DNA of 64,000 nt from an uncultured Bacteroides sp. (GTDB taxonomy: Bacteria; Bacteroidota; Bacteroidia; Bacteroidales; Bacteroidaceae), in assembly GCA_947038155.1 (NCBI GenBank), contig CAMQVH010000006.1, forward strand, positions 62,001 to 126,000, read 5' to 3'. Below the pieces are notes generated by a model that saw only the letters and a program-made list of their open reading frames with translations, searched no databases and had not been told where the DNA came from. Position 1 is the first letter of the stretch. Every line of letters begins with the position of its first letter. Positions 7,641 to 45,351 of this stretch are shown here, piece after piece. The position numbers were made by a program, and so were the translations under genes.

Positions 7641-8498
7641 ATGGAACAACAGGCCAATTATATCCGTCGTATCGAAATCCACGGACTATGGGAACGCTTT
7701 AATATAGGATGGGATTTGCGTCCCGATGTGAACATTCTTTCCGGCATCAACGGAGTGGGGAAGACCACCATTCTGAACCGTTCCGTCGGCTATCTCGAAG
7801 AACTTTACGGTGAAATGAAAAGTGACGAAAAGAACGGAGTACGTCTTTTCTTTGACAATCCCGAAGCAACCTATATCCCCTACGACGTTATCCGCAGCTA
7901 CGACCGCCCCCTGATGATGGGAGACTTCGCCGCCCGCATGGCCGATAAGAACGTAAAGTCCGAACTGGACTGGCAACTCTATCTACTGCAACGCCGCTAC
8001 CTCGACTATCAGGTCAACATCGGCAACAAAATGATAGAAATGCTTTCCAGTAACGATGAAGAAGAACGCCGCAGGGCTGCCACCCTGTCCATAGCCAAAC
8101 GCCGTTTTCAGGATATGATTGACGAACTTTTCAGTTACACCCGCAAGAAGATAGACCGCAAACGGAACGACATCGCCTTCTATCAGGACGGCGAACTGCT
8201 GTTTCCCTACAAACTTTCTTCCGGCGAAAAGCAAATGCTCGTCATCCTGCTCACCGTACTCGTACAGGACAACAGCCATTGTGTACTCTTTATGGACGAA
8301 CCGGAAGCCTCTCTTCATATAGAATGGCAACAGAAGTTGATTGCCATGATACGTGAACTGAATCCGAACGTACAGATAATCCTGACCACCCATTCACCTG
8401 CCGTCATCATGGAAGGCTGGCTGGATGCCGTGACGGAAGTAAGTGATATTTCAACGGAAGCGAACGGATTTAAAGTACCCCCGCTCATTAACCATTAG
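7641..8498 (+). CDS. ABC-type AAA ATPase, OLD/PARIS-like
   Basis: A compact 285-residue ABC-class ATPase of the AAA_15/AAA_21/OLD group. Visible motifs are Walker A GINGVGKT (residues 35-42), signature-like LSSGEKQ (192-198), Walker B VLFMDEPEAS (215-224) with catalytic E220, and the H-loop TTHSP (249-253). No transmembrane segments or transporter partner are present, so it is a cytosolic switch rather than a transporter. The next gene encodes a DUF4435 TOPRIM-like protein, and the pair matches the architecture of OLD-like nucleases and the PARIS (AriA-AriB) anti-phage system. The last codons (LINH-stop) lie in the start of a heptanucleotide repeat that fills the gap to the next gene. Defence is inferred from gene pairing; the protein is shorter than I recall for AriA. 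Confidence 0.8.
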   Translation: MEQQANYIRRIEIHGLWERFNIGWDLRPDVNILSGINGVGKTTILNRSVGYLEELYGEMKSDEKNGVRLFFDNPEATYIPYDVIRSYDRPLMMGDFAARMADKNVKSELDWQLYLLQRRYLDYQVNIGNKMIEMLSSNDEEERRRAATLSIAKRRFQDMIDELFSYTRKKIDRKRNDIAFYQDGELLFPYKLSSGEKQMLVILLTVLVQDNSHCVLFMDEPEASLHIEWQQKLIAMIRELNPNVQIILTTHSPAVIMEGWLDAVTEVSDISTEANGFKVPPLINH

Positions 8499-8550
8499 TC
8501 ACTAATCACTAAACCATTAATCATTAATCACTAAACCGTTAATCACTATC
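8486..8550. repeat. Degenerate heptanucleotide repeat (CACTAAT/CATTAAT)
   Basis: A run of near-identical 7-mers: CATTAAC, CATTAGT, CACTAAT, CACTAAA, then C plus CATTAAT, CATTAAT, CACTAAA, then C plus CGTTAAT, CACTATC. It starts inside the last codons of the ATPase gene and fills nearly all of the space before the DUF4435 gene. The same 7-bp periodicity appears at five other places in this window. Confidence 0.8.
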
Positions 8551-11282: not shown

Positions 11283-11388
11283 GTTTCCTTGTATGGAAAC
11301 GCCCGTATCCCATAAAGGATACTGTCGTTTCCTTACTGGGATACGCTCGTTTCCCGTAATGGATACAGGCGTTTCCCTATAAGGAAAC
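11283..11388. repeat. 22-bp-phased array of five 18-bp palindromes
   Basis: Five dyads start at 11283, 11305, 11327, 11349 and 11371, each 18 bp: GTTTCC or GTATCC, six variable bases, then GGAAAC or GGATAC. Spacers are exactly 4 bp (gccc, tgtc, gctc, aggc), giving a strict 22-bp pitch, about two helical turns. A half-site GTTTCC lies just before, at 11273. The variable cores differ completely while the arms are conserved. The direct repeat AGTGCATT occurs at 11225 and 11401, flanking the block. A second array of the same design is at 42453-42580. Confidence 0.9.
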
Positions 11389-11463
11389 TGAATTGTCACC
11401 AGTGCATTAAAAAACAGGCTCTTATCTTAACGTCAGTTCGATATAAACTTAAGTAATGTGCAT

Positions 11464-19180: not shown

Positions 19181-19269
19181 TTAATTAGTGTTTAGTGTTT
19201 AATGATTAGTAATTAACATATCGATGCATTTTTTTTGTTAATCGTTCATCACTAAACGTTAATCGTTAA
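19181..19269. repeat. Inverted pair of heptanucleotide repeat runs between nuoCD and nuoH
   Basis: Left run (19181-19215): TTAATTA, GTGTTTA, GTGTTTA, ATGATTA, GTAATTA. Right run (19235-19269): TTGTTAA, TCGTTCA, TCACTAA, ACGTTAA, TCGTTAA. Each is five exact 7-bp steps. The left unit phased as TTAGTGT matches the right unit read on the other strand as TTAGTGA, so the runs are inverted and could fold. The 19-bp centre includes an eight-T tract. Confidence 0.8.
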
Positions 19270-30737: not shown

Positions 30738-30848
30738 GATAAATGGATAATCAGTAAATAGCAAAACGGTAGACGGTAAACGGTAGATGATGAATGAAAG
30801 TGAACTAACATAAATAATTCATTGTTTACCGTTTACAGTTTGCCGTTT
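30738..30848. repeat. Inverted heptanucleotide repeat runs between murF-alr and tatA
   Basis: Left run: GATAAAT, GGATAAT, CAGTAAA, TAGCAAA, ACGGTAG, ACGGTAA, ACGGTAG, ATGATGA (30738-30793). Right run: ATTGTTT, ACCGTTT, ACAGTTT, GCCGTTT (30821-30848). The right run is the inverse of the left (AAACGGT), so a long imperfect hairpin is possible. It could act as a terminator for murF-alr just before the tatA promoter. Confidence 0.8.
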
Positions 30849-35364: not shown

Positions 35365-35498
35365 ATTCGCTAATTTTTGCAGACGTTAATTTTTATTCTC
35401 TCTTTATGCAATTCATTAACACCTCTATAATGAACAAACGCCTATATTTGCAACACGTTTTTTTCATAGAGATTTAGATTTAAGGTTAGAAGAATTGT

Positions 35499-35524
35499 GG
35501 AAGTCGTGAGACTTCCCTTTTTTT
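35499..35524 (+). terminator. Hairpin with GTGA loop and T tract
   Basis: GGAAGTC (35499-35505), loop GTGA, GACTTCC (35510-35516), then CTTTTTTT. A textbook intrinsic terminator on the plus strand, 134 bp after the helicase stop. Confidence 0.75.
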
Positions 35525-35600
35525 CATCTTAACGTTTACTATTCTTTGTTTGTATCACTTGTATTTGAGTATGAAAAATGGGGAATAAGTAAACTTGAAA

Positions 35601-35627
35601 AGCCCTCTTCGTGAGAAGAGGCTTTTT
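35601..35627 (+). terminator. Second hairpin with GTGA loop and T tract
   Basis: AGCCCTCTTC (35601-35610), loop GTGA, GAAGAGGCT (35615-35623), then TTTTT. A nine-pair stem with one bulged C, similar in design to the hairpin 100 bp earlier. Confidence 0.75.
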
Positions 35628-35745
35628 TGTGTGCAGTTGTTCGTTATTCAATCGCAGTGAATAGAGATGAGTTTGTGCTGATATTTAATAAATAAAAACG
35701 AATTGTGCTAAATGGGATATGTAGAAGAGGAGAGAGGATAATGAA

Positions 35746-41439: not shown

Positions 41440-42411
41440 ATGAAAAGGGTGTTTTTTAAAGGAATGATGTTGTTGCTCCTGTCTGGTGTGGGAGCAACAT
41501 CGGTCTATTCACAACAACAGCAACGCAAAGACACGTTAGTCGTCACACGCGACGGGACAGGAGATTACCGCAATATTCAGGAAGCAGTGGAAGCTGTCCG
41601 CGCTTTTATGGACTACACGGTGACTATCTATATAAAGAACGGTACGTACAAAGAAAAACTGGTGATTCCCTCTTGGGTGAAGAACGTACAGTTGGTAGGC
41701 GAAGATGCAGAAAAGACGATTATCACGTACGATGACCATGCCAATATCAACAAAATGGGAACGTTCCGCACCTATACCGTCAAGGTGGAAGGCAATGACG
41801 TCACTTTCAGAGACTTGACGATTGAGAATAATGCGGCTCCTTTGGGGCAGGCGGTGGCTCTTCACACCGAAGGCGACCGGCTGATGTTCGTCAATTGCCG
41901 CTTTCTCGGTAATCAGGATACTGTCTATACAGGTTCGGAAGGAGACTGTCTTTTATTCACCAACTGCTATATAGAAGGTACTACCGACTTTATTTTCGGT
42001 CCTTCTACGGCACTTTTTGAATATTGCGAACTGCATAGCAAACGTGATTCGTATATCACCGCCGCTTCGACTCCTCAAAATGAAGAGTTTGGCTATGTCT
42101 TCAAAAACTGTAAACTGACCGCTGCTCCGGGAGTGAAAAAGGTATATCTAGGTCGCCCTTGGCGTCCGTACGCCGCTACGGTGTTTATCAATTGTGAGTT
42201 TGGCGGCCATATCCGCCCCGAAGGATGGCATAACTGGAAGAATCCGGAGAATGAAAAGACAGCCCGTTATGCGGAATTTGGAAATACAGGCGAAGGTGCA
42301 GGTACATCGGGACGTGTGACATGGGGGAAACAACTCACAAAAAAGGAAGCATTGAGGTACACTCCGGAGAATATCTTTAAAGAAAGCAGTAACTGGTATC
42401 CCTATAAGTAG
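41440..42411 (+). CDS. Pectin methylesterase (CE8)
   Basis: A 323-residue CE8 right-handed beta-helix enzyme with a signal peptide (MLLLLSGVGATSVYSQQ). It removes methyl esters from homogalacturonan so that lyases can act. Catalytic signature segments are GTYKEKL, GQAVALHTEGDR, NQDTVYTG, DFIFGPSTALFE with the nucleophilic aspartate, and LGRPWRPYAATVF with the conserved arginine. It lies 9 bp after GH105. An array of palindromic repeats follows its stop codon. Confidence 0.94.
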   Translation: MKRVFFKGMMLLLLSGVGATSVYSQQQQRKDTLVVTRDGTGDYRNIQEAVEAVRAFMDYTVTIYIKNGTYKEKLVIPSWVKNVQLVGEDAEKTIITYDDHANINKMGTFRTYTVKVEGNDVTFRDLTIENNAAPLGQAVALHTEGDRLMFVNCRFLGNQDTVYTGSEGDCLLFTNCYIEGTTDFIFGPSTALFEYCELHSKRDSYITAASTPQNEEFGYVFKNCKLTAAPGVKKVYLGRPWRPYAATVFINCEFGGHIRPEGWHNWKNPENEKTARYAEFGNTGEGAGTSGRVTWGKQLTKKEALRYTPENIFKESSNWYPYK

Positions 42412-42452
42412 AAACATTAGCGCTTCTGACAGGCGCTACGATACGAAATGTC

Positions 42453-42580
42453 TGTTTCTGGTCTTGAAACCATTTGTTTCATCGCTTGCGACTGTTGTTT
42501 CCATTAATTGAAACTAGAGTTTCTTCAGCAGGAAACAAAATGTTTCATGTCATTGAACACTTTGTTCCGATAAGGATGAG
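42453..42580. repeat. Second 22-bp-phased palindrome array (GTTTC/GAAAC)
   Basis: Units start every 22 bp at 42453, 42475, 42497, 42519, 42541 and 42563. The best are TGTTTC-TGGTCT-TGAAAC, GTTTCC-ATTAAT-TGAAAC (42497-42514) and GTTTCT-TCAGCA-GGAAAC (42519-42536), with 4-bp spacers; the others are degenerate. This is the same 18+4 design as the array at 11283-11388. It occupies the first part of the 380-bp gap between the CE8 and CE12-CE8 genes. Confidence 0.8.
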
Positions 42581-42648
42581 CAAACTTGGATACGAGAGAA
42601 ACGTAGCTTCCGGTAGCTTCTGGAAATAAAGGAATAAAGAAGGTTGGG

Positions 42649-42740
42649 AAGCGGTGATAGGTGATAGGTTGAAAAATAACCTATCACCGCTTGAAATGCC
42701 GATGAATAGGGCGTTTGATGGATGCCGGTGATAGGTGAAA
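42649..42740. repeat. GGTGATA heptanucleotide repeats with hairpin
   Basis: GGTGATA, GGTGATA, GGTTGAA (42653-42673) are followed by an inverted AACCTATCACCGC and, further on, by GGTGATA, GGTGAAA (42727-42740). GTGATAGGTT/AACCTATCAC forms a 10-bp stem with a 7-nt loop, with an alternative outer pairing by the first heptad. It may terminate or attenuate transcription between the CE8 and CE12-CE8 genes. Confidence 0.7.
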
Positions 42741-42791
42741 GAGAAAAATGATTTTTTATTATAGAGTATAGCATAAAGAAAATGAAAGAAA

Positions 42792-44531
42792 ATGAAAGAA
42801 AATAGAAGTAAATTAGTACTGTTGTTGGCAGTTACCTTTGTTCTCTGCTCTGCATTTCGCGCGGACAAGCCTGTCGTAACTATCTTTATGATAGGGGATT
42901 CGACTATGGCTAACAAGAAGTTGGACGGCGGAAATCCCGAACGTGGCTGGGGAATGGTACTTCCCGGATTTTTTTCCGAGGACATAAAGATAGACAATCA
43001 TGCTGCCAACGGACGCAGTTCCAAGAGTTTTATCTCCGAAGGACGTTGGGCAAAAGTCATCTCCAAAGTGAAGAAAGGTGATTATGTCTTTATCCAGTTC
43101 GGACATAATGATGAAAAGGCGGATTCTACCCGACACACAGAGCCGGGAACTACTTTCGATGACAATCTCCGCCGATATGTAAACGAAACCCGCGCGAAAG
43201 GCGGCATCCCCGTATTGTTCAATTCCATCGTCCGCCGTAACTTCGTCCAACCGCAGGATGCCTCTATCACTAAGGATATCCGCCGGACACCAGGGGAAAA
43301 AGAGCAACCCAAAGAAGGGACGGTCTTGTTCGATACGCATGGAGCTTATTTGGATTCTCCACGCAATGTAGCGAAAGAGCTCGGAGTCGTATTTATTGAT
43401 ATGAACAAAATCACTCACGACCTGGTGCAAGAGCTCGGACCGGTAGAATCGAAAAAGCTTTTTATGTTTGTCGCCCCCAATCAGATTCCCGCTTTTCCGA
43501 AAGGCCGTGAAGACAATACCCATTTGAATGTCTATGGAGCGCGAACCATCGCAGGCCTGGCTGTCGATGCCATCGGCAGGGAAATTCCCGAATTGGCAAA
43601 ATATATCCGTCATTACGATTATGTGGTAGCCCAAGACGGTAGCGGTGATTTCTTTACCGTGCAGGAAGCTATCAATGCTGTCCCCGACTTCCGTAAAAAT
43701 ACCCGTACCACGATTCTCGTTCGCAAAGGCACTTACAAAGAAAAGATAATCATCCCTGAAAGTAAGATTAATATCTCCTTGATAGGAGAGGAGGGCGCAG
43801 TATTGACTAATGACGATTTCGCCAATAAGAAAAACGTATTCGGTGAAAATATGGGAACTTCCGGTTCGTCCGGTTGTTATGTCTATGCCCCGGACTTCTA
43901 TGCGGAGAATATCACATTCGAGAACTCATCCGGTCCCGTAGGGCAAGCTGTCGCCTGCTTTGTCTCTGCCGACCGTGCATTTTTCAAGAATTGCCGCTTC
44001 TTAGGCTTCCAGGATACCCTCTACACTTACGGCAAACAAAGCCGCCAATATTACGAAGACTGCTACATCGAAGGAACGGTAGATTTTATCTTCGGCTGGT
44101 CTACGGCTGTGTTCAATCGCTGCCATATTCACAGCAAGCGTGACGGCTATGTGACCGCTCCTTCTACCGACAAAGGAAAAAAATACGGTTATGTCTTTTA
44201 CGACTGCAAGCTCACCGCAGAACCGGAAGCTACAAAAGTGTATCTTTCCCGTCCCTGGCGTCCGTATGCGCAAGCTGTATTCATCCGTTGCGAACTTGGC
44301 AGACATATTCTTCCCGTTGGCTGGAACAACTGGGGTAAGAAGGAAAACGAGAAAACTGCCTTTTATGCCGAATATGAGAGCCGTGGCGAAGGAGCCAATC
44401 CAAAAGCGCGTGCCGCTTTCTCCCGTCAGTTGAAGAACCTGAAGGGATATGAGATAAAAACAGTCCTGGCAGGAGGTGATGATTGGAATCCGGTAGAAGA
44501 GGGAAATAAGTTGTTGGATGTAAGACGTTGA
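42792..44531 (+). CDS. CE12 acetylesterase - CE8 pectin methylesterase fusion
   Basis: A 579-residue secreted two-domain enzyme. Residues 30-270 form an SGNH rhamnogalacturonan-acetylesterase-type domain (CE12) with the catalytic serine in IGDSTMA, GRSSKSF, the GHND block and DNTHLNVYG supplying Asp/His. Residues 275-560 form a CE8 methylesterase with GTYKEKI, GQAVACFVSADR, FQDTLYTYG, DFIFGWSTAVF and LSRPWRPYAQAVF. One protein could remove both acetyl and methyl groups from pectin. It follows 380 bp of repeat-rich DNA without a clear -7 element. Confidence 0.93.
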   Translation: MKENRSKLVLLLAVTFVLCSAFRADKPVVTIFMIGDSTMANKKLDGGNPERGWGMVLPGFFSEDIKIDNHAANGRSSKSFISEGRWAKVISKVKKGDYVFIQFGHNDEKADSTRHTEPGTTFDDNLRRYVNETRAKGGIPVLFNSIVRRNFVQPQDASITKDIRRTPGEKEQPKEGTVLFDTHGAYLDSPRNVAKELGVVFIDMNKITHDLVQELGPVESKKLFMFVAPNQIPAFPKGREDNTHLNVYGARTIAGLAVDAIGREIPELAKYIRHYDYVVAQDGSGDFFTVQEAINAVPDFRKNTRTTILVRKGTYKEKIIIPESKINISLIGEEGAVLTNDDFANKKNVFGENMGTSGSSGCYVYAPDFYAENITFENSSGPVGQAVACFVSADRAFFKNCRFLGFQDTLYTYGKQSRQYYEDCYIEGTVDFIFGWSTAVFNRCHIHSKRDGYVTAPSTDKGKKYGYVFYDCKLTAEPEATKVYLSRPWRPYAQAVFIRCELGRHILPVGWNNWGKKENEKTAFYAEYESRGEGANPKARAAFSRQLKNLKGYEIKTVLAGGDDWNPVEEGNKLLDVRR

Positions 44532-44635: not shown

Positions 44636-44950
44636 ATGAGAAGAAACGAGATTGTAGATATGATACGCAACACCCTTCGGCAGGTAGCCCCCAACTCCCA
44701 AACCATACTTTATGGCTCGGAAGCCCGCGGGGATGCACGTCCGGATAGTGACATTGATTTGCTTATTTTGGTGGATGAACCACAACTCACTCCCGAACGT
44801 GAGCAGGAAATAATTCGTCCACTTTATGAATTGGAAGTAAAATTCGGGGTTATTATCAGTCCTATGATTATGCTACGTAAGTTATGGGAAAATCGTCCCT
44901 TTCAGACACCTTTTTCTCTAAATGTAATGAATGAGGGGATTATATTATGA
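44636..44950 (+). CDS. MNT-type minimal nucleotidyltransferase
   Basis: A 104-residue protein of the pol-beta-like minimal nucleotidyltransferase family. The motif GSX10DXD is exact: G27-S28 (YGSEARGD) and D39/D41 (PDSDIDLLIL). In HEPN-MNT modules the MNT protein is the antitoxin, often by AMPylating or otherwise blocking the HEPN partner. Its stop overlaps the HEPN gene start by 4 bp (ATGA), the usual coupled arrangement. It lies inside a carbohydrate locus between the CE12-CE8 and HTCS genes. Confidence 0.88.
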   Translation: MRRNEIVDMIRNTLRQVAPNSQTILYGSEARGDARPDSDIDLLILVDEPQLTPEREQEIIRPLYELEVKFGVIISPMIMLRKLWENRPFQTPFSLNVMNEGIIL

Positions 44951-45351
44951 AACAGGAATTATCTCCCGAACATCGAATAGCCTTGGTGCAATATCGTTTT
45001 GAACGAGCCTATCTGACACTAAAAGAAGCCGACTATATGCGTAAGGGAGACTTCTTTAATGCAGCTATTAATCGTCTTTATTATGCCTGCTTTTATGCAG
45101 CTACCGGCTTGTTGATATCCAAAGGTATTGATGCCGGTACTCACAACGGAGTGAAAACAATGCTGTCTTATCATTTTGTACGTACTAATCTACTGAGTCT
45201 GGAGCATGGTAGTACATACAGTAATTTGTTTGACAAACGCCATAGTGGAGACTATGAAGATTTCGCTTACTGTGATGCGGCGTTGGTAGATTATCTTTTA
45301 CCTCGTGCGGAAGCTTTTATTAAAGCCGTAGAGATTCTGGCACAAGAATAA
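44947..45351 (+). CDS. HEPN domain protein
   Basis: A 134-residue all-alpha HEPN protein paired with the MNT gene. Conserved blocks are NRLYYACFYAATGLL in the central helix and FDKRHSGDYEDF near the C-terminus. The classic RNase motif R-X4-6-H is not seen; instead this subfamily has an R-H-x-G-D-Y type block, so RNase toxicity is uncertain. HEPN-MNT pairs act as toxin-antitoxin systems, yet related pairs are found near many metabolic loci. Start and overlap are well supported. Confidence 0.85.
   Translation: MKQELSPEHRIALVQYRFERAYLTLKEADYMRKGDFFNAAINRLYYACFYAATGLLISKGIDAGTHNGVKTMLSYHFVRTNLLSLEHGSTYSNLFDKRHSGDYEDFAYCDAALVDYLLPRAEAFIKAVEILAQE

Follow-up and report, generated by a model that had tools for sequence, protein, structure and literature searches.

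A 22-bp tandem-palindrome array in a Bacteroides pectin locus and the dispersed repeat family to which it belongs

Palindromic units of the form GTTTC-N7/8-GAAAC (family F1) are repeated in tandem every 22 bp in Bacteroides, and whole units are gained and lost between relatives. One array of this family, partly decayed, lies between two pectin esterase genes of the window, which here means the whole 64,000-nucleotide stretch of DNA that was analysed. With a probability of about one half, we read this segment as a worn member of a dispersed family of intergenic tandem-palindrome minisatellites, the units of which would act as dyad sites in REP/BIME-like DNA elements. Bacteroides is a dominant gut genus, and in the open-access literature that we searched, no family of 22-bp palindromes was reported from it and this class of repeats was not described.

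The array in the pectin spacer and at the same site in relatives

The features of the locus, together with the second array of the window, were as follows (strand is given for the genes).

41440..42411, + strand: pectinesterase (CE8), from Pfam domains
42412..42791: array-bearing intergenic spacer, from CE8 to CE12-CE8
42454..42580: tandem palindrome array, 22-bp period, about 6 units, partly decayed
42454..42470: first unit, intact on both sides (GTTTC-N7-GAAAC)
42476..42492: second unit, with an intact left arm and GCGAC as its decayed right arm
42497..42514: third unit, intact on both sides (GTTTC-N8-GAAAC)
42519..42536: fourth unit, intact on both sides (GTTTC-N8-GAAAC)
42542..42558: fifth unit, with an intact left arm and GAAC as its decayed right arm
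42564..42585: sixth unit, in strong decay (GTTCC ... GCAAAC); right anchor, conserved in relatives
42656..42768: separate dispersed element of GTGATAG heptamers with a hairpin and the core CGATGAATAgGG, outside the 22-bp array
42792..44531, + strand: fusion of a GDSL esterase (CE12-like) with a pectinesterase (CE8), from Pfam domains
11283..11388: other array of the window, lying in a convergent gap, with 5 units of the GT[T/A]TCC..GGA[A/T]AC variant

The CE8 stop codon lies 42 bp before the pectin array, and the spacer carries five GTTTC and three GAAAC arms in a 22-bp register. Left arms stand at 42454, 42476, 42497, 42519 and 42542, followed by a decayed GTTCC at 42564; the right arms are at 42466, 42510 and 42532, with decayed versions at 42488 (GCGAC) and 42555 (GAAC). 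The original prediction had given these three intact right arms and both flanking genes exactly, and had also proposed six unit starts with a uniform design of 18+4. Its starts at 42497 and 42519 were correct, but those at 42453, 42475, 42541 and 42563 were each too low by one base, since GTTTC-N7-GAAAC-N5 units stand beside GTTTC-N8-GAAAC-N4 units in the array; the design is a mixture of 17+5, 18+4 and 18+5, although the register does return to 22. Unit 2 resembles a ATCGCTTG unit in genome G060. No match to a promoter of the sigma-ABfr type (TTTG-N18-22-TAnnTTTG) was found in the spacer 42412-42791, which would be compatible with read-through from CE8 into CE12-CE8.

Ten register pairs were observed in the array, and the maximum among 20,000 dinucleotide shuffles was one. 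This statistic was defined post hoc, with the array already seen, so the genome-wide pattern count serves as the independent test: GTTTC-N7/8-GAAAC-N3-5-GTTTC had 70 matches in this draft genome (72% complete) against 0 for the reversed control. The matches form about a dozen clusters, and 13 arrays were recognised by scripts, counting 11283-11388. The idea that a five-base word clustered by chance in a low-complexity spacer is refuted by these results (0 of 20,000 shuffles; 70 vs 0) and by the conserved site with its 22-bp steps in relatives.

At the syntenic CE8-CE12 site, an array was present in seven other Bacteroides genomes (G009, G103, G108, G060, G012, G021 and B. xylanisolvens XB1A), and the GTTTC array was missing in G001, G058 and G104. 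The anchor-to-anchor distance was 141 in G060, 207 in G009 and 251 in G103, which means steps of 66 and 44 bp, while G108, at 228, was one base off register. Between G060 and G103 the difference was 110 bp, or 5 × 22, and both are single-contig assemblies, so draft repeat collapse cannot account for it. The window differed from G009 by +88 at this site. In this near-identical relative the array is clean and has about 10 units, against about 6 in the window, and a two-unit block of 44 bp is repeated in its interior; the window thus carries a worn version of this allele, not an independent oddity, and its array had rightly been called more degenerate. Orthologous arrays elsewhere differed in length by +88, -88, -88, +22, -44, 0, 0 and -22, with flanks 92-99% identical except for one pair (L147/L227, 79-87%) and with the poorly anchored pairs L149/L215 and W2/L219 omitted or replaced by anchor distances. 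Where alignments anchored cleanly, unit number thus changed among relatives in whole 22-bp steps, and drift without the register was not seen.

Several observations were made beside the arrays. The class of heptamer elements seen at 42656..42768 occurs also at loci L147, L158, L166, L169, L171, L174, L176, L178 and L179, and consists of tandem and inverted 7-8-mers (GTGATAG, GTGACAG, GTGAGGGTA, ATGAGAGTA) around a CGATGAATAAGG-like core; the orthologous spacer of B. xylanisolvens is made of a different word, CTGCAAC / TTGCAGAT. We considered this element as a fixed tail of the arrays and rejected it, since it adjoins only some of them. Tandem repeats of 7 bp, often with an inverted partner, occupy many intergenic gaps of the window (8490-8548, 13166, 19182-19269, 28445, 30766-30848, 35351 and 42653), and at 8490-8548 periods of 7 bp and 22 bp (3 × 7 + 1) occur together. 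ACGTCAGTTCGATATAA, the end type of ISPg3 / MITE239 of the IS5 family (PMC4596501), was found at 11430-11446 beside the 11283-11388 array, and a complete-looking copy replaces the array in the CE8-CE12 gap of L061. Just downstream of CE12-CE8, at 44636-45351, adjacent nucleotidyltransferase (MNT-like) and HEPN genes are likely a toxin-antitoxin pair, and 35455-35628 has an Rfam match to the Bacteroides sRNA BTnc231. Bacteroidales-like CE12-CE8 genes also occur on contigs L110 and L088; these contigs, which bear the labels Staphylococcus sp. and Lachnospiraceae, are probably mislabelled or mixed metagenome bins.

Spread, constraint and origin of the F1 family

The tandem pattern was matched in 70 of the 121 Bacteroides genomes sampled, with up to 250 matches per genome (those with one or two are perhaps chance, as controls occasionally score), and XB1A had 127 matches against 0 in the control. 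In the rest of the order, clear presence was restricted to two other families (G225/G324; G308), and genomes sampled from other orders gave single matches only, at control level. The original prediction had argued from two loci for a real repeat family, and about 13 arrays here, 70 of 121 Bacteroides genomes and two further families indicate that it was understated.

The arms and the period of F1 are constrained and the centres are nearly free, and the arrays lie outside coding sequence, near gene 3' ends. Among 329 units from four genomes, of which G000 and G009 have some loci in common, identity per base was 93-96% in the arms, whereas the unit centres had 43-55% from neighbour to neighbour and 30-37% from array to array; units were located via their arms with up to 3 mismatches, which inflates the arm values somewhat, yet arms and centres remain far apart. 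Among close relatives with the pectin locus omitted, conservation of arms and centres did not differ significantly, the differences being too few. The step from unit to unit was 22 bp in 242 cases, 21 bp in 19 and 23 bp in 14. Inner gaps covary, N7 going with N5 and N8 with N4 (odds ratio 119, Fisher p 8e-29), to which two inherited sub-types could contribute. None of 42 arrays was inside a gene, divergent gaps were depleted (3/42 vs 9/34, p 0.03), and 27 of the 32 arrays in tandem gaps were closer to the upstream stop than to the downstream start; these position counts include arrays orthologous to each other and used gene calls by a simple script.

A second site provided different alleles of one gap. 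It is a 9-bp gap in G108 and G058, a 21-bp triplication across the stop codon in G012, and, in G000 and G001, an array of four GTTTC units flanked by inverted sequence; a few other duplications of 21-22 bp also overlap stop codons. Filled, triplicated and empty alleles at this site suggest that a duplication of some 21-22 bp can give rise to an array on the spot, and F1 must also have spread; the evidence for such in-place birth, read from these alleles, is suggestive. The G012 triplication (L344, near 1460-1524) is possibly the birth of a new array. In L352 (G021), the gap after the homologous stop codon holds a different insert rich in CCTGAAAGGGC / GCCCTTTCAGGGC inverted repeats, where the window genome has a GTTTC array.

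It is possible, at clearly lower odds than our main reading, that the arrays are neutral or selfish minisatellites without host function, in which palindromes would provoke replication slippage, so that arrays appear, lengthen, shorten and wear away in gene-end spacers that tolerate them. Turnover of whole units in both directions, the 44-bp blocks that homogenise the G009 interior, the decayed units at array edges, and the triplication over a stop codon where other genomes have 9 bp, with its few counterparts of 21-22 bp, are all in favour of this. But slippage alone leaves arm identity of about 94% beside diverging centres unexplained, and explains neither the fixed 22-bp period nor the random orientation of F2 units described below.

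Spread of a MITE-like mobile element core by a trans-acting transposase, as in BrickBuilt of Porphyromonas gingivalis, seems unlikely to us. One family does occupy many non-homologous sites, filled (G000, G001) and empty (G108, G058) versions of one site exist, and in XB1A three loci (L169/L171/L179) have about 300 bp in common including the array (84-88%) and two (L164/L168) have 421 bp in common at 93%. However, most F1 arrays have no flanking sequence in common, no clear target-site duplication was seen, the window has no enrichment of BrickBuilt-type TIRs, and several array-rich genomes are without transposases of the Y1 class, which the search covered.

Very unlikely, in our view, is an action as 3'-UTR RNA hairpins that stabilise mRNA or aid termination. 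The arrays do lie shortly after stop codons, and the clean G009 array folded better than its shuffles (z -3.97), but the window array folded no better than shuffles (z -1.09), its A/T-rich stems have just 5 bp, and no T-run follows it as in an intrinsic terminator. Rfam had no match above gathering score within 42400-42800. A hairpin in sense-strand RNA would keep a G-U pair with one of the two commonest arm variants but suffer a C-A mismatch with the other, and the counts of these variants (GTTCC 14, GGAAC 19, p 0.49) did not favour the strand that tolerates G-U. Compensation was seen in just 2 of 11 double-arm mutants and most arm mutations were uncompensated, so arm compensation was dropped as a sign of pairing. 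The lack of a wobble-strand bias, the few compensated mutants and the weak fold of the window array favour recognition of F1 arrays as DNA rather than RNA.

A DNA-level palindromic minisatellite, which is our main reading, would work as follows. Each F1 unit would be a putative dyad site for a dimeric DNA-binding protein, with one putative binding site per two helical turns, and the arrays may serve as REP/BIME-like DNA elements in insulation, termination support or chromosome packing. Expansion and contraction in register would proceed through recombination or replication slippage, and the pectin spacer would hold a copy in decay, the effect of which would be weak at most.

The 22-bp period across unrelated repeats

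Among the long repeat periods in intergenic DNA of Bacteroidaceae, 22 bp dominates. Tandem Repeats Finder (TRF), applied to loci unselected for arrays, gave 0, 3, 18, 0 and 3 arrays at periods of 20, 21, 22, 23 and 24 in 444 kb, mostly from Bacteroides and related Bacteroidaceae. In 200 kb of G103 it found 7 arrays with the period 22, no other period between 16 and 35 having more than 2, and in 400 kb of XB1A there were 10 at period 22, while 200 kb of E. coli K-12 and 260 kb of other Bacteroidota orders had none. G097, which is without GTTTC arrays, had one period-22 array in 200 kb, so the 22-bp class is not universal in the genus. For XB1A, for G103 and for the Bacteroidaceae set, an independent self-match spectrum of intergenic 7-mers peaked at 22 and 44; E. 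coli had no such peaks, and XB1A and other Bacteroidota also had one at 21.

The units of different period-22 arrays were mostly unrelated in sequence. Palindromicity was measured by column permutation, as TRF consensus units proved too insensitive, and inverted words were in excess, and lost that excess when the 22 columns were permuted, in 19 of 29 arrays (p<0.05) vs 10 of 144 arrays of other periods. None of 37 period-22 arrays was within a gene, and 14 of the 17 in tandem gaps were closer to the stop. Palindromes in tandem at 22 bp include GTTTC..GAAAC, ATAGYGWCRCTAT, CGTCTGAC..GTCAGACG, AACAGA..TCTGTT and TTACCACGGCCGTGGTAA, and the CE8 site without a GTTTC array (L067, L069, G058) holds a different palindromic array, TTAACTTCTTGTCGACAAGAAG-like, with a period of about 22 bp. 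Two of these families are dispersed. F2 (ATAGYGWCRCTAT) had matches in all nine of the GTTTC-array genomes nearest the window and 0 in controls; all 53 pairs listed were at 22 bp, under a search pattern that barred periods above 22, and the orientation of neighbouring units was random (25 same, 28 opposite). Simple slippage does not give such random orientation, which counts against our main reading. F3 (CGTCTGAC..GTCAGACG) had spacings of 22 and 44 only. Its arrays at L328-L339 often have about 97 bp and four units, are nearly self-complementary overall, and form part of a longer dispersed element that is flanked by TATGCATA-like sequence.

We suggest tentatively, and at less than even odds, that a process in Bacteroidaceae measures about 22 bp, by which unrelated palindromes would independently become 22-bp arrays in gene-end spacers. 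This might be a fixed-length-duplicating enzyme or a filament-like protein that takes one dyad per two helical turns with family-specific partners, so that period and symmetry, and not sequence, would be inherited or selected. If the 22-bp rule is true, what lies behind it would be either a DNA-binding or nucleoid protein, so far uncharacterised, that has sites all over the chromosome, or an enzyme of fixed-length duplication. The arrays are also fast-changing strain markers and a source of artefacts in intergenic assembly and alignment.

Comparison with known repeat systems

F1 is most likely a REP-like, DNA-level palindromic minisatellite, with a putative REP/BIME-like action but without being REP or BIME. 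Like REP/BIME/REPIN elements, its arrays are short, dispersed, clustered intergenic palindromes near gene 3' ends, but they differ by a strict 22-bp tandem register and a variable centre. REP sequences linked to RAYT carry an unpaired GTAG or CGTC tag on one end of the palindrome (PMC3733652), and no conserved tag of either kind was found in F1 units. The Y1 transposase (RAYT, PF01797) is absent from the array-rich genomes G103, G021, G001, G108 and G046, and on this ground a RAYT-mobilised REP was rejected.

With VNTRs or minisatellites F1 shares a copy number that differs by whole units among relatives, as was found here, but it is palindromic, has conserved arms with a free centre, and keeps one period across unrelated sequences. 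Iteron arrays of plasmid origins, such as the 22-bp iterons of R6K, are protein-binding repeats in tandem, with one repeat in about every two helical turns. F1 has the same tandem arrangement and a similar spacing, but it is palindromic and occupies about 13 chromosomal sites, and no Rep gene stands beside the pectin array of the window, the neighbours of which are pectin enzymes. CRISPR arrays also have repeat words flanking variable centres, but their repeats have about 21-48 bp and their unique spacers about 20-70 bp, whereas F1 has centres of 7-8 bp and spacers of 4-5 bp; with a 22-bp unit that is far too short and many dispersed sites, F1 is not a CRISPR.

BrickBuilt is a MITE of P. gingivalis with an intergenic tandem repeat of a 23-nt unit and strain-variable copy number, and has a leader, a tail and IS5-type inverted ends, with BLASTn matches only in P. 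gingivalis (and P. gulae) (PMC4596501). It is like F1 in being tandem and intergenic, in similar unit length, in copy-number variation and in belonging to the same bacterial order. The 23-nt unit is at odds with the 22 bp of F1 (242 steps at 22, 14 at 23), and TIRs of the BrickBuilt (GAGACCTTTGCA) type had no match in 42412-42791 and no excess across the window, so identity with BrickBuilt was rejected on unit length and TIR. Flanks resembling a common leader or tail were limited to the two XB1A groups described above. Tandem repeats of 22 nt, without a location, are mentioned in P. gingivalis W83 (PMC4596501), and these may be an earlier sighting of the F1 family.
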